Source of the DNA: Agarivorans litoreus
GTDB taxonomy: Bacteria > Pseudomonadota > Gammaproteobacteria > Enterobacterales > Celerinatantimonadaceae
Length of the DNA stretch: 64,000 nucleotides
Direction: 5' to 3'
Assembly: GCF_019649015.1 (NCBI RefSeq)
Contig: NZ_BLPI01000001.1
Coordinates: 1,835,001 to 1,899,000 of the forward strand
Shown: in pieces, positions 8,549-41,841 of the stretch
Layout: the number at the start of each line of letters is the position of its first letter
How positions within the stretch are numbered: position 1 is the first letter of the stretch
Position numbers and translations under genes: made by a program
Notes under the pieces: model-generated
Databases searched by the model: none
What the model was told of the DNA's origin: nothing
What the model saw: only the letters and a program-made list of their open reading frames with translations

Positions 8549-9436
8549 TTACCGCAAGTTTTTAACAAGGTTAGGGAGCACCCAAAGTTTATCTTCATCA
8601 ATCGGCGTCTTTGGATGTAAAGACGGATTGCGTAGTTTAAACACCAAGCGATTTTCCATTAAATCTGCCAATTTGTGGTAATTAAATTTTTTAAATAGCG
8701 CTTCAAAACTACCATCATCAATGGCTAGCCTTAAACCTTGCTCTAAACGCTCGGCTAACACGGTGTTTTCTGGGTTTACAAAGTAATAAATGGGTGCGGG
8801 ATAACTGAGTAATATTCTTGGCTCTGCAACAAAACCTTCCCGTTGATGCTGTTTTAATTCGGCACCTACTTCGCTAATACCTCGAGGAAAATAATCAAAG
8901 CGGCCGCGCTCTAACATGCCAAACAAACCTTCATAGGTTTTGCCTTCAATTACTGGCAAACGATTGTATTCTAGTATCTCAATATCAGGCCAGCCCATAC
9001 CTTGCCCTGCGCGCATTTGAGCCAATTCACTAAGCTGTTGAATGTCTCTAAATCGACGAAGGTCTTCTCGGCGGATCATCAATACCCGCTGGCCTAATAA
9101 GCCCTTCAATAAAGGAATGCGTACAGCCAGCAGTTTTGACTCACGCTCAAGGCTGGTCATGGTCCAAACTACATCTATACAACGCTTGCGCTGTAACTGC
9201 TGTAGCGCCCTATCTTGCATCATCCGCACTGCGCAAGTTTGCGTTTGGTAGGCCCCAAAACCCGCTTCAGTTTTACTCAAAGCTAAGTTCAGCAATTCTA
9301 CGAAATATTGTTGGCGTTTATCGTTATCGCTTTCGGGTTGAGCATGTCTCACCACGATATTTGCTGCATGGACTTTCGCTAAAGCAATCACAAAAATGAC
9401 TAATATCCATAAATAGCGGCAAGGCATAGGAATCAT
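8549..9436 (-). CDS. Periplasmic solute-binding-like protein
   Basis: A 295-residue exported protein: signal peptide about residues 1-24 (YLWILVIFVIALAKVHA), then an SBP_bac_3-like fold suggested by VRHAQPESDNDKRQQYFVELL at the start and YFVNPENTVLAERLEQGLRLAIDDGSFEALFKKF near the end. It has no neighbouring ABC transporter genes, so it may be a stand-alone sensor or binding protein. Two in-frame ATGs (9436, 9427) compete and neither has a strong ribosome site. A degraded paralogue lies immediately upstream at 9578-10054. Substrate unknown. Confidence 0.75.
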   Translation of the reverse strand: MIPMPCRYLWILVIFVIALAKVHAANIVVRHAQPESDNDKRQQYFVELLNLALSKTEAGFGAYQTQTCAVRMMQDRALQQLQRKRCIDVVWTMTSLERESKLLAVRIPLLKGLLGQRVLMIRREDLRRFRDIQQLSELAQMRAGQGMGWPDIEILEYNRLPVIEGKTYEGLFGMLERGRFDYFPRGISEVGAELKQHQREGFVAEPRILLSYPAPIYYFVNPENTVLAERLEQGLRLAIDDGSFEALFKKFNYHKLADLMENRLVFKLRNPSLHPKTPIDEDKLWVLPNLVKNLR

Positions 9437-9577
9437 CCATCATTAACTCATTCGCTAATTGTATGAAATCGGCGAGTCAAGCAGCAAGCAAACAGATCAA
9501 CAAAACATCAACAGCTATGAAATGATAACTCACCAATAAAACCAATTTTTCATAAAATGAGACAGCGAGAGTAATTC

Positions 9578-10054
9578 TTAGTTAATAGTGAGCCAAAGCG
9601 GGCTTTGCTCGCTAGGTGTGCTAGCGTGTAAATAGGGCTTATTTAGTTTAATCACCGTGCGAGATCTTAGCTCGTTAACTAGATTGTCGTATCGATAGCG
9701 AGAAAACAGTGCATCAAAGCTACTATCGCTAAAGGCGATCCATAAACTTTGTTCGATACGCGCTGCGGTGCTCATTGTCCACACCATATCAATACCGTGG
9801 TTATTTTACAGCTGCAGCAAAGAGCGATTTGGGCGCATTTTGGCTTTATTGCTCTCGAGACGAAACGGCCCAAGCTCCTGCTCAGTTTTAGACAAGACCA
9901 AGTCGAGTAAATCGATAAAGTAGCGATTTCGTAAGTCTTTCGCCTTGCGGCGCAATATGGCGTACCAGCTGAGGGCTTAGCTCAGCGGCAATAGATATCG
10001 AGCAAAGCGATAGACTGGTAAACACAATCTGCAATAGCCTTTGTGTTAATGACT
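9578..10054 (-). pseudogene. Degraded paralogue of the solute-binding protein
   Basis: Conceptual leftward translation gives a signal-like N-terminus, then LVRHIAPQGE, a frameshift, KDLRNRYFIDLLDLVLSKTE, an in-frame stop near 9810, MVWTMS, and then directly RIEQSLWIAFSDSSFDALFSRYRYDNL. These blocks are collinear with VRHAQPE, RQQYFVELLNLALSKTE, VVWTMTS and RLEQGLRLAIDDGSFEALFKKF of the neighbour at 8549. About 125-140 residues between VWTMS and RIEQ are missing. One frameshift, one stop and one large deletion make it a clear pseudogene of a tandem duplicate. Confidence 0.85.
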
Positions 10055-10175
10055 GCAAAACGACTCAACAAATAGATAGTCAAACTCTTTAATACTTACC
10101 AGTGACGTAAGCTATGTATCATAAGCTTACCACTAAGGTTTATACTTGGCTTAACCTCAACAATAAGGATTAGCT

Positions 10176-10787
10176 TTGCTGCATTCATTACTCAACAACA
10201 GCGTTATAGCTTTAAGTATATTAGTGCTCACTGCTTGCTCCACAGGGAACCATGGCTCCTATGCCGAGCGGAGCTTTTATCAAGGAAATACTAGGGGCTG
10301 TTGATCTTTTCTGATGGTTTTTGCAGCAATTTATTAGCCATTTAGGCAAGGCAGTGAGTGTGCAGTTAAGTGGGCTTAATAATCACTCGCTAACGCTGAA
10401 TAAATGGCTAAGAAATGCTGCCCGAAGGGTTCGGATAAGCGAACTTTACTCTTTGTTAAGCACTTCTTGCTTAGCCCACTAGGCTTCTAAGTGCTCGCCG
10501 CGATTAAAGCCCGCTTATTTCGAACAAAATTTCAACACCAAAGATCAACAGACCCTAGTAACTTAAGATATATTGGTCCCGCCAGTGGCAAACACTGCCA
10601 AACGTATGCTTTATATCTATTTCCATTAAAGCAAAACCCATCAACAGCACTCGCCTTAGCGCAAGCAAAGCAATCTCAAGACTCCACCCTAATGCTAACC
10701 GACCTTAGTATTAGTGACGTTACGCAATGGGGAATTGGCTACGCTAAACGCTGTATATTGGTCACCGCAGACGCCTACGGGAAATAA
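10176..10787 (+). pseudogene. Small lipoprotein gene split by MITE copy 2
   Basis: From a TTG at 10176 (AAGGA at 10165-10169) the frame reads a lipoprotein signal ending LVLTAC, then STGNHGSYAERSFYQGNT, and enters the MITE at 10291, where it reaches a stop after three more codons. Beyond the MITE, at 10559-10787, the same protein continues as NLRYIGPASGKHCQTYALY to GYAKRCILVTADAYGK and a TAA. Removing the element plus one copy of its CTAG target joins the halves in frame (..GNT-S-NLRY..) to give about 114 residues. The function of the intact protein is unknown; it resembles small gammaproteobacterial lipoproteins ending in a (K/T)xCIxVxxDAY-like tail. Confidence 0.85.
10291..10558 (-). mobile_element. 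MITE copy 2, inverted, inside a lipoprotein gene
   Basis: Same 268-bp element as at 2257 but in reverse orientation. The left TIR carries changes (CTAGGGGCTGTTGATCTTTT) and the right TIR is canonical. It is flanked by CTAG on both sides, which gives an in-frame empty site when one copy is removed. Confidence 0.9.
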
Positions 10788-10802
10788 GCGTTTTCTAAAG
10801 TT

Positions 10803-10840
10803 AGGTGATGAGCCGAGGTTAAACGTCGAACTCCCACAGC
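10803..10840 (-). repeat. tRNA-Pro 3'-half remnant (distal)
   Basis: The leftward strand reads GGGAGTTCGA, an inserted or altered T-arm stretch, then CTCATCACC. It resembles the T-arm and acceptor end of the intact tRNA-Pro at 11006. It lacks the final CGACCA and sits downstream of terminator 10867. Confidence 0.55.
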
Positions 10841-10866
10841 TCTTACTTATTATTCAGCCATAAAAA

Positions 10867-10894
10867 AAAGCCCCGTCATAACTGACGGGGCTTT
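10867..10894. terminator. Second terminator of the tRNA operon
   Basis: Perfect 12-bp stem AAAGCCCCGTCA / TGACGGGGCTTT with loop TAAC. An A-run on its left gives a T-run for leftward transcripts. Confidence 0.85.
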
Positions 10895-10899
10895 CTAAT

Positions 10900-10940
10900 T
10901 GTGGTCGGTGATGCGCCAAGGTTAAAAGGCGAACTCCCCA
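10900..10940 (-). repeat. tRNA-Pro 3'-half remnant (proximal)
   Basis: The leftward strand reads GGGGAGTTCG, a replaced segment, then CGCATCACCGACCA. The acceptor strand, discriminator and CCA match tRNA-Pro, but the D and anticodon arms are missing. Confidence 0.65.
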
Positions 10941-10970
10941 TTCATTGCTCAATTCCAAGCTAAAGAAAGC

Positions 10971-10999
10971 AAAAAGCCTGCTCGATGAGCAGGCTTTTT
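10971..10999. terminator. First terminator of the tRNA operon
   Basis: Perfect 13-bp stem AAAAAGCCTGCTC / GAGCAGGCTTTTT with loop GAT, directly downstream of tRNA-Pro on the leftward strand. Confidence 0.9.
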
Positions 11000-11005
11000 A
11001 GAAGG

Positions 11006-11082
<77 letters not shown>

Positions 11083-11109
11083 ATTTTCTTGATATTTCAG
11101 AAGACTAAA

Positions 11110-11198
11110 CCCTCTGGTCCCGCTCTTTATGAGCTTCGCGATGATGCGCTATCAAGCTGCGCTAATCACCGATTTTCTTGATATTTCAGAGGACTAAA
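11110..11198 (-). repeat. tRNA-Pro 5'-half remnant, copy 1
   Basis: An 89-bp unit that duplicates the 5' half of tRNA-Pro and its 5' flank. The leftward strand has CGGTGATTAGCGCAGC, a D-arm with one change, an inserted foreign piece in place of the anticodon stem-loop, then GGGACCAGAGGG and the same leader as the true gene (TGAAATATCAAGAAAAT). It has no T-arm, so it cannot be a functional tRNA. Confidence 0.75.
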
Positions 11199-11261
11199 CC
11201 CTCTGGTCCCACTCTTTATGAGCTTCGTGACGATGCGCTACCAAGTTGCGCTTGTCATCTT
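11199..11261 (-). repeat. tRNA-Pro 5'-half remnant, copy 2 (more diverged)
   Basis: Second tandem unit with the same inserted segment (CTCTTTATGAGCTTCG on the + strand) and a D-arm match. The acceptor strand is degraded (GATGACAAGCGCAAC instead of CGGTGATTAGCGCAGC). Confidence 0.65.
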
Positions 11262-11334
11262 AATTATTGTAGAGCAAGCTCTTAACAATAATCAAACTAT
11301 TGCGATAACAACGAATCTCGTTGCATCTAAATAA

Positions 11335-11410
11335 TGGGGTGAGTAATGGGATTTGAACCCACGACAACCGGAATCACAATCCGGGGCTCTACCAACTGAG
11401 CTATACCCAC
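11335..11410 (-). tRNA. tRNA-His (GUG)
   Basis: A 76-nt gene with encoded CCA. Leftward it reads GTGGGTATAGCTCAGTTGG; the anticodon loop ATTGTGATT has anticodon GTG, and the T-arm has GGGTTCAAATCCC. A G precedes the 5' end, as needed for the histidine G-1. Confidence 0.95.
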
Positions 11411-11440
11411 CACTGAGTATTTCGAGCGTTTCCGAAGCAA

Positions 11441-11517
11441 TGGCGCACCCGACAGGAGTCGAACCTGTGACCTTCGCCTCCGGAGGGCGACGCTCTATCC
11501 AGCTGAGCTACGGGTGC
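11441..11517 (-). tRNA. tRNA-Arg (CCG)
   Basis: A 77-nt gene with encoded CCA. Leftward GCACCCGTAGCTCAGCTGG, anticodon arm CGCCCTCCGGAGGCG (anticodon CCG), T-arm AGGTTCGACTCCT. First gene of the operon; the argX-hisR-proM order is partly retained compared with E. coli argX-hisR-leuT-proM. Confidence 0.95.
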
Positions 11518-11681
11518 TCAACGCTGGCGGAGGCGTATATTAGGGTTTTAGCCCCGCCCTGTAAAGACATTTTAGAAAAAAACTGGTAATTGCTGACTTT
11601 TCCAGCAAGCCTTGCAAAAACCAGCAATTTTAAGGCTAGCTAAACCACCAAAATCAGCTTTGTCAATTTAACAATGCACTC

Positions 11682-13220
11682 CTAAATCGTGCTAAAACCT
11701 GCGTAAGCTATTCCGCTTAAATAAGCCATTTCTCGATGCCACGTTGCCAAGTCGTCTTTAGTGAATTGATTAAGATGATGATGCCCACACGCACGTGCCA
11801 TAACCTGCATTAGCGCTACCGATGCATCAAAGAAATTAGCCAATTGCTGAGCCGATTTGTCCACCTTTAAACGCTGGCGTAAATCGGCATTTTGGGTGGC
11901 AATCCCAGCTGGGCAATTATTGGTATTACAGATCCGCGCTGCCACACAACCTATGGCTTGCATGGCACTATTAGATACCGCTACACCATCGGCTCCTAAA
12001 GCCATGGCTTTGACAAAATCCATAGGTAAGCGCAAACCGCCTGTTATAATCAAACTCACCCTGCCACTGGCACCTTGTTGGTCAAGATAGCGTCGCGCTC
12101 TGGCTAAGGCCGGAATGGTAGGCACACTAATATGGTCCCTAAATATTTCTGGTGCTGCCCCAGTACCGCCGCCACGCCCATCTAATATGATGTAGTCAGC
12201 GCTGCTATCTAAAGCAAATTGAATATCTCGCTCGATATGGTTAGCACTTAACTTAAAACCAAGGGGAATGCCGCCGCTTATTTCACGCACCCGATCGGCA
12301 AAATGTTTAAAGTCTTTGCTACTGTGTAAATCAGCAAAGGTGGGCGGGGAGATTGCCGGTTGCCCTTCAGCTATGCCACGAACTAAAGAAATTTTGCCAT
12401 GGTTTTTATTGCCAGGTAAATGCCCTCCGGTGCCGGTTTTGGCACCTTGCCCTCCTTTAAAGTGAAAAGCTTGAACTTGAGTTAGCAGTGATTCTTGATA
12501 ACCAAATTTGGCGCTGGCTAACTCATAAAGGTAACGGGAATTTTGTTGCTGCTCTTCAGCCAGCATGCCGCCTTCGCCAGAGCAAATACCAGTTCCAGCC
12601 AACTCGGCGCCTTTAGCCAACGCGATTTTAGCTTCTTCCGATAAGGCACCAAAACTCATATCAGAGACAAACAGAGGTATCTTTAGCTGCAGTGGCTTTT
12701 TCGCCTCTGGGCCGATAATCAGTTCTGTGGCCACAGATTGATCTTCCATCAAAGGCTTTTTGGCCATTTGTGCCACCATCACTTGAATGTCGTCCCAATG
12801 TGGCAGAAGATGCCTAGGTACTCCCATCGAGGTCATTGCTCCATGGTGACCCAGTTTTGATAAACCTTCACGCGCCAATTGATGAATAAAGGCAACGGTG
12901 GGTTCTTCAGTGGTAGCAGTGGCTTGAGGTGCAGCACTTTTTGTTTGAGGCTGTGGGGCTTCTTGGCCTATTTGCTCGGCGCTAAACTGCTTATGGCTGC
13001 CATCACAAAATGGGCTATTCCCCGTGGTTTTACAAGCACATAAATAAGCATCACCACTTTCTTCTGCGGTAAAAGCCTTGGGGCTAAGGCCAGTACCTGC
13101 ATGGCTACCATCACAAAAGGGTTGGGATTTAGAACGACCACAGCTGCAAAAGTAGTATTGGTCTCCCTTAGTTAAACTCACCTTGTTGGGTTTGTCATCG
13201 GCAATAATCGGCTTAGTCAT
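11682..13220 (-). CDS. Double-CDGSH / glutamate synthase-domain fusion
   Basis: A 512-residue protein. Residues 25-40 (CSCGRSKSQPFCDGSH) and 61-76 (CACKTTGNSPFCDGSH) are two CDGSH-type motifs, each expected to bind a [2Fe-2S] cluster through three Cys and one His. Residues about 110-512 form a ferredoxin-dependent glutamate synthase-like TIM barrel with an FMN/2-oxoglutarate region (ILDGRGGGTGAAPE) and the Cys-rich motif CVAARICNTNNCPAGIATQ, which fits the GltS [3Fe-4S] spacing C-x5-C-x4-C. No amidotransferase domain is present. It is probably an FMN redox enzyme fed electrons through its own Fe-S domains. True glutamate synthase activity is not shown. Confidence 0.88.
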   Translation of the reverse strand: MTKPIIADDKPNKVSLTKGDQYYFCSCGRSKSQPFCDGSHAGTGLSPKAFTAEESGDAYLCACKTTGNSPFCDGSHKQFSAEQIGQEAPQPQTKSAAPQATATTEEPTVAFIHQLAREGLSKLGHHGAMTSMGVPRHLLPHWDDIQVMVAQMAKKPLMEDQSVATELIIGPEAKKPLQLKIPLFVSDMSFGALSEEAKIALAKGAELAGTGICSGEGGMLAEEQQQNSRYLYELASAKFGYQESLLTQVQAFHFKGGQGAKTGTGGHLPGNKNHGKISLVRGIAEGQPAISPPTFADLHSSKDFKHFADRVREISGGIPLGFKLSANHIERDIQFALDSSADYIILDGRGGGTGAAPEIFRDHISVPTIPALARARRYLDQQGASGRVSLIITGGLRLPMDFVKAMALGADGVAVSNSAMQAIGCVAARICNTNNCPAGIATQNADLRQRLKVDKSAQQLANFFDASVALMQVMARACGHHHLNQFTKDDLATWHREMAYLSGIAYAGFSTI

Positions 13221-14335: not shown

Positions 14336-14607
14336 CTAGGGTCTGTTGATCTTTGGTGTTGAAGTTTTGTTCGAGATAAGCGGGCTTTAATCGCGGCGAG
14401 CACTTAGAAGCCTAGTGGGCTAAGCAAGAAGTGCTTAACAAAGAGTAAAGTTCGCTTATCCGAACCCTTCGGGCAGCATTTCTTAGCCATTTATCCAGCG
14501 TTAGCGAGTGATTATTAAGCCCAGCCCATTAACCGCACACTCTCAGCCTTGCCTAAATGGCTAACAAATTGCTGCAAAAACCATCAGCAAAGATCAACAG
14601 ACCCTAG
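14336..14607 (+). mobile_element. MITE copy 3 (272 bp)
   Basis: Same orientation as copy 1, with both TIRs intact (CTAGGGTCTGTTGATCTTTG and its complement). A few extra bases in the interior (AGCCCAGCCCATTAACCGC region) make it slightly longer. It occupies the divergent promoter region between the GNAT gene and the MATE transporter, which otherwise holds no gene (14306-14749). Confidence 0.9.
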
Positions 14608-41573: not shown

Positions 41574-41841
41574 CTAGGGTCTGTTGAACTTTGGTGTTGA
41601 AGTTTTGCTCGAGATAAGCGGGCTTTAATCGCGGCGAGCACTTAGAAGCCTAGTGGGCTAAGCAAGAAGTGCTTAACAAAGAGTAAAGTTCGCTTACCCG
41701 AACCCTTCGGGCAGCATTTCTTAGCCATTTATTCAGCGTTAGCGAGTGATTATTAAGCACACTTAACTGCACCACTCACTGCCTTGCCTAAATGGCTAAT
41801 AAATTGCTGCAAAAACCATCAGCAAAGATCAACAGACCCTA
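41574..41841 (+). mobile_element. MITE copy 4
   Basis: Same element and orientation as copies 1 and 3. The left end is CTAGGGTCTGTTGA followed by one change (ACTTTG); the right end finishes AACAGACCCTAA, so the outer base differs from the CTAG of the other copies while the TA is kept. It sits between the convergent ends of the RND operon and the HDOD gene. Confidence 0.9.

Follow-up and report, generated by a model that had tools for sequence, protein, structure and literature searches.

A 262-bp MITE splits a small gene for a probable lipoprotein in the 4.34-Mb genome of Agarivorans litoreus, within a 64,000-nucleotide stretch of DNA that was analysed as a whole (the window). The insertion is real and breaks the gene. 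As an event it is ordinary and cleanly documented, and the structured MITE family is of more interest than the split gene itself. In the best overall explanation, to which we assign a probability of about 0.85, an IS5-family-type MITE was moved in trans, presumably by a transposase like that of an IS of Vibrio salinus, and inserted at the central TA of a CTAG site in the gene, duplicating the TA. In-frame stops would then have ended translation, and the whole lipoprotein would no longer be made. Taken on its own, the account of the insertion is close to certain.

The split gene for a probable lipoprotein and its intact relatives

The 5′ part of the gene lies at 10176–10293 on the plus strand; it has a TTG start after AAGG, encodes a putative signal sequence with the lipobox LTAC and ends in the target TA. 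The 3′ part follows the MITE at 10558–10787 on the same strand. The first in-frame stop, a TGA at 10302–10304 (plus strand), comes from the MITE and closes the N-terminal half as an ORF of 42 aa (10176–10304; ...LTACSTG...FYQGNT, then RGC and the stop). The MITE and its duplication together measure 264 nt (3 × 88), and since this number is divisible by three, the two halves of the gene keep a common reading frame despite the insert. A frameshift was thus ruled out as the cause of the break, which consists in six in-frame stops supplied across the MITE (10302, 10335, 10377, 10380, 10401 and 10488). When the 264 nt were removed in silico, 348 nt were left, equal to 115 codons and a stop, and apart from the insert no further stop or frameshift was found in these codons. 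The initial annotation had correctly stated that excision restores the frame, although its wording that the halves join in frame only when the element is removed was imprecise.

A lipobox of the form L-[TS]-A-C was recognised by eye in all five genes, that is, the split gene and its four intact relatives described below. The N-terminal half alone reached 11.8 bits with the model LPAM_1 (cut-off 20). Neither half of the split gene matched a Pfam or NCBIfam family at cut-off, and the four intact relatives matched no Pfam family at cut-off. The product of the split gene is a probable lipoprotein.

The C-terminal half matched five of 60 genomes, all of the same genus: its own, G001, G003, G004 and G005. 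In the latter four, out of the six other Agarivorans genomes compared, the gene was uninterrupted and aligned without a gap over the insertion point. It formed a single open frame of 118–125 codons that spans both halves, with a TTG start at the equivalent place. The remaining two genomes (G002 and G006) showed no match to the lipoprotein gene. G005 matched Agarivorans sp. Toyoura001 without a difference over 3113 bp (L150 against L059), and the genus was accordingly taken to be Agarivorans. A profile built from the four intact relatives matched the split gene's own genome twice, with residues 1–44 in the 5′ part and residues 40–118 in the 3′ part, so that both halves are homologous to one protein. 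In G001, the insertion site reads CTAG, without an insert, and both flanks of the insertion match G001 and G004 in order. Within the order, the profile matched 12 of 394 genomes and five of 115 genera. A search of a contig collection with the C-terminal half returned no relative from that collection, which may omit records close to the genome of origin. The claim of the initial annotation that a MITE splits a lipoprotein gene is borne out by these matches, as is its expectation of an uninterrupted gene in relatives.

The insertion was apparently recent. We read it so because the gene carries no second defect and because its dN/dS was 0.12 against G004 and 0.19 against G001, the two nearest relatives; together with the whole gene in four of the six other genomes, this supports the earlier proposal of a recent insertion into a formerly intact gene. 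That the MITE landed in a gene already decaying and dead is quite improbable. The gene seems dispensable, since two of the six other genomes of the genus have no match to it, and both dN/dS values somewhat exceed the 0.09 found between G004 and G001. They are nevertheless well below 1, and 115 codons without another stop or frameshift speak against prior decay. Multi-copy repeats of 262 bp are able to mislead assembly, but an assembly artefact is hardly credible here: the flanks on both sides are collinear with G001 and G004, the copy in question has three differences from the consensus of its kind, and the TA duplication is clean.

As had been recognised at the outset, the downstream half of the gene forms a chimeric ORF with MITE sequence (10491–10787, plus strand; 98 aa), in which about 22 codons of MITE origin are fused to the 3′ part, continuing as SNLRYIGPASGK...TADAYGK. 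This ORF has no lipoprotein signal of its own and is probably not a real gene. The creation of chimeric ORFs by MITE ends is a warning for annotators. A consensus scan of positions 10100–10900 gave one promoter-like site over the right junction (10545–10574), downstream of the GTG of the chimeric ORF, and one terminator-like site within the MITE (10426–10447). Since shuffled sequences gave means of 1.4 and 0.7 such sites, respectively, neither site carries weight as evidence.

Two further features were observed beside the gene. On the minus strand, three short ORFs at 9578–10058 look by eye like pieces of a neighbouring 295-aa protein (8549–9436), and are apparently what is left of a decayed tandem paralogue of its gene. 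A tRNA at 11009–11082 has beside it repeats (10804–10938 and 11083–11260) that resemble leftover tRNA ends.

Copies, target duplication and landing sites

The MITE occupies 10294–10555 on the plus strand, begins with G, ends with C and contains no transposase gene; its boundaries were set from the flanks of 45 copies and from empty sites. The left terminal inverted repeat (10294–10309, plus strand) forms the outer stem of a fold with the right one (10540–10555, minus strand). With flanking bases counted in, the repeats have 28-nt arms at 86% identity. The longest ORF lying fully inside the element encodes 53 aa (10321–10482). The element has the marks of a MITE: it is short, lacks a transposase gene, and has terminal inverted repeats, a target duplication and many near-identical copies.

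At least 41 full or near-full matches with 96–100% identity were found in the host genome, where 40 of the 96 candidates from a first look had been scored. Altogether the MITE occurs at about 66 places, some of them partial or detected by one end only; this figure stands for 65 merged match clusters, one of which is a tandem pair. That pair (G000:C1:3099886-3100409, L023 and L024) has one CTAG in common. Of the 45 copies whose flanks were examined, 43 are complete, and two of these (65.5% and 91.2% identity) were dropped for the consensus. The other 41 differ from the consensus by one to seven substitutions over 260 positions, the copy in the lipoprotein gene by three.

Three other copies lie in the window, all on the minus strand. 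The copy at 41577–41839 sits within a terminator-like hairpin, and this hairpin is intact in G001 and G004, where the site is empty and reads CTAA. The site of the copy at 14339–14604 is empty in G004 and holds a shortened copy in G001 (L081:3558-3699). The break in the shortened copy has GCAGCATTT in common with the flank, which suggests that it arose by a short-homology deletion. At the site matching the third copy (2260–2521), G001 has CTAGGGTCTGTT (L081, near 15715), possibly a short vestige of a MITE copy that has since gone.

The initial annotation had taken CTAG as the target duplication. This was not borne out by the flanks, which were examined at 45 of the approximately 66 places. Among the 43 complete copies, 36 had flanks of the form YTAG...CTAR, and the other seven deviated. 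The 36 clear sites comprised 17 CTAG/CTAG, 10 CTAG/CTAA, six TTAG/CTAG and three TTAG/CTAA. A 4-bp duplication would be expected to leave equal flanking 4-mers, but these were unequal in 19 of the 36 copies with a clear site. The copy at 41577 (window plus strand) has CTAG on its left and CTAA on its right, and the same site without the copy in G001 and G004 is CTAA. A 4-bp CTAG duplication was therefore ruled out. As read from these flanks, the MITE duplicates only TA, which in the lipoprotein gene stands at 10292–10293 (left copy) and 10556–10557 (right copy). Since the MITE begins with G and ends with C, an insertion around the central TA of CTAG mimics a duplication of all four bases.

Landing sites were classified with open frames standing in for genes (a start codon and at least 100 codons, within 1000 bases). 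Among 45 copies, eight had their TA in a stop codon, six lay inside a frame, including the copy in the lipoprotein gene, and 31 did neither. The window has 1386 further YTAR sites, of which 27 were in stop codons, 1070 inside frames and 289 in neither class. Copies are thus strongly depleted inside frames (p = 9e-19). Outside frames, stop codons are mildly over-represented (8/39 copies vs 27/316 sites, p = 0.039). Without the start-codon requirement the stop-codon count was 9/45, and the stricter count of 8/45 was used. Because the MITE begins with G, a stop codon that is hit is rebuilt as TAG; this was the case in L017, L033, L034, L035, L040, L044, L092 and L100. A TA-targeting element with G and C at its ends can therefore occupy stop codons and leave the protein unchanged.

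A two-arm fold conserved across genera

Homologous copies with 67–73% identity were found in Shewanella, Vibrio and Pseudoalteromonas. The MITE folds with z = −6.8 and −7.4 on its two strands. The consensus fold of 20 sequences has 80 pairs and consists of the outer stem formed by the ends and two hairpin arms, left (10324–10420) and right (10430–10524), both given for the plus strand. In this fold 95.6% of 1600 cells are paired (96.9% in the 16-pair outer stem), and 43 of the 80 pairs show compensatory changes, that is, changes on both sides. On all five measures, the observed value was reached by none of 500 shuffles, controls that ignore the kinship of the sequences. When the structures were slid by one to three columns, 36–49% of cells were paired.

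The right arm contains a highly conserved internal loop near CTTTGTT (10451–10457) and CGCCGCG (10496–10502). Its six unpaired columns average 97.5% identity, and the adjoining stems 79% and 68%. High conservation is not general to the loops of the fold, since the others average 64–89% (92% for one that has three columns). Within the order, a model of the right arm matched 110 of 394 genomes, which represent 31 of 115 genera. Among 369 genomes drawn from the class it matched seven, four of which are outside the order and had weaker scores. Neither the right-arm model nor a search with the MITE gave a match in the genus-mate G003, and phages had no match for the homologous copy L128.

Wobble pairs did not name an active strand: G-U and A-C events numbered 15 and 21 in the 20 sequences (p = 0.41), and 29 and 50 in an alignment of 44 sequences (p = 0.024, against the strand shown), from which five sequences of the own genus (L130, L131, L134, L150 and L154) and L155, whose ends were not located, were left out. 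An RNA from one strand is thus unsupported by wobble asymmetry. With Rfam 15 at the gathering cut-off, only tRNA was found in positions 9000–12000 of the window and in 10 loci that carry homologues of the MITE; three sub-threshold matches were taken as chance. The literature searched gave no description of the family, and an earlier account of Shewanella members is possible in Romine et al. 2008, a study of mobile elements in Shewanella oneidensis that the review PMC10969869 cites. The part of PMC7953158 that shares a 12-base word with the MITE is a primer table and unrelated. As far as this literature and Rfam 15 show, the structured family appears to be without an earlier description.

Private mutations in the 41 own copies number 73, a sample with limited power, and do not avoid the fold: 39 are on paired sites (44 expected with 158 of 260 sites paired; p = 0.23) and 32 on sites conserved across genera (36 expected; p = 0.41). 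Of the 39 stem mutations, 24 disrupt the pair, 14 result in G-T and one keeps a Watson-Crick pair. Once inserted, single copies seem not to be constrained by the fold and to drift freely. Because private mutations do not avoid it, the fold more likely serves the spread of the MITE itself. It would be kept since folding copies propagate, whether by means of a folded DNA strand or of RNA, and is probably maintained via which copies multiply and not by the host at each site. We give the step that the fold serves propagation about an even chance.

Two other origins of the conserved fold were weighed. The core could be a functional RNA or a regulatory element that is useful to the host at landing sites and was spread by the IS5-type ends. 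Compensatory changes in 43 of 80 pairs, a loop so much better conserved than its stems (97.5% vs 79% and 68%) and a one-arm model found in 31 of the 115 genera of the order would fit such a role. Usefulness to the host is nevertheless unlikely, given that private mutations hit stems (39/73) and conserved sites (32/73) about as often as chance predicts, that wobble pairs favour neither strand clearly, that G003 lacks a match and that no Rfam family was recovered. The compensatory changes could also be a by-product of template switching between palindromic arms during replication, in which case the fold would have no function. The MITE is indeed a long imperfect palindrome, which matches reverse-oriented copies over its length at 55–58%, and both strands fold about equally well; in a palindromic element, compensatory changes can come about without selection. 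We take this origin seriously but consider it doubtful, because the unpaired loop is among the most conserved parts and arm-to-arm copying would tend to erase such a loop (other loops are less conserved), and because just one of the 39 private stem mutations still forms a Watson-Crick pair with its partner in the consensus.

Returning to a fold that serves the element's own spread, one family of folded mini-transposons on IS5-type ends may have spread through an order of Gammaproteobacteria with marine and related members. The two-arm fold and the unpaired loop would have been kept, the folded form would be active in mobility, bound by the transposase or by a host protein, and the terminal G would make insertions into TAA and TAG harmless by rebuilding TAG. 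We offer this tentatively, as a possible and not yet a probable picture. With its many copies, many genera and a transposase-less fold that evolves by compensatory change, the family makes a direct test possible of whether folded DNA or RNA aids the movement of an element.

Kin elements and known systems

The ends of the MITE align to two IS copies of V. salinus, over 30–42 nt at 83–91% (L070) and 30–41 nt at 76–88% (L063). Both copies carry a transposase gene and measure 883–884 bp without the TA. Their flanks are CTAG...CTAA (L070) and CTAG...CTAG (L063). The 253-aa protein of L063 scored 262 bits with NCBIfam NF033580 (cut-off 110) and also has DUF4096 and DDE_Tnp_1, and the MITE ends thus match an IS whose transposase is of the IS5 family.

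Searches of the host genome with the V. salinus protein and with NF033580 found neither a matching transposase nor a parent IS. The matches to the transposase family PF01609 numbered 22. Among 10 such loci examined, none showed a transposase bracketed by MITE-like ends; in one (L074) a MITE copy lies downstream, and single loose end matches were seen in three more. As far as these searches reach, the MITE would be an orphan in its own genome. Because no matching transposase was found there, its mobilisation in trans is something we infer, and its present mobility is unproven.

NF033580 gave no match over the cut-off in the six other Agarivorans genomes. In one of them, G006, there were 33 matches below the cut-off, mostly open frames of 240–315 codons. 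Two genomes of another genus (G008 and G010) contain many broken copies of a V. salinus-like transposase. Ends of G010 contigs (C1 and C8) match the V. salinus transposase at 98–100%, as if several copies of a newly acquired IS had broken the assembly.

The MITE and the IS5-family copies of V. salinus are alike in their ends and in a TA-type insertion pattern. They differ in that the latter are 883–884 bp long with a transposase gene and, beyond the ends, share only matches of 8–17 nt with the MITE among the matches listed. The IS427 group of the IS5 family is presumably alike in size and TA duplication, going by ISfinder descriptions.

Bacterial MITEs are described, in the review PMC10969869, as elements of less than 500 bp with terminal inverted repeats and a target duplication and without a transposase, which occur in many copies, have a stable predicted fold and lie mostly outside genes. 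The 262-bp MITE shares these traits. It is unlike the MITEs described there in the compensatory stem changes that extend over several genera and in an arm model that reaches 31 of 115 genera.
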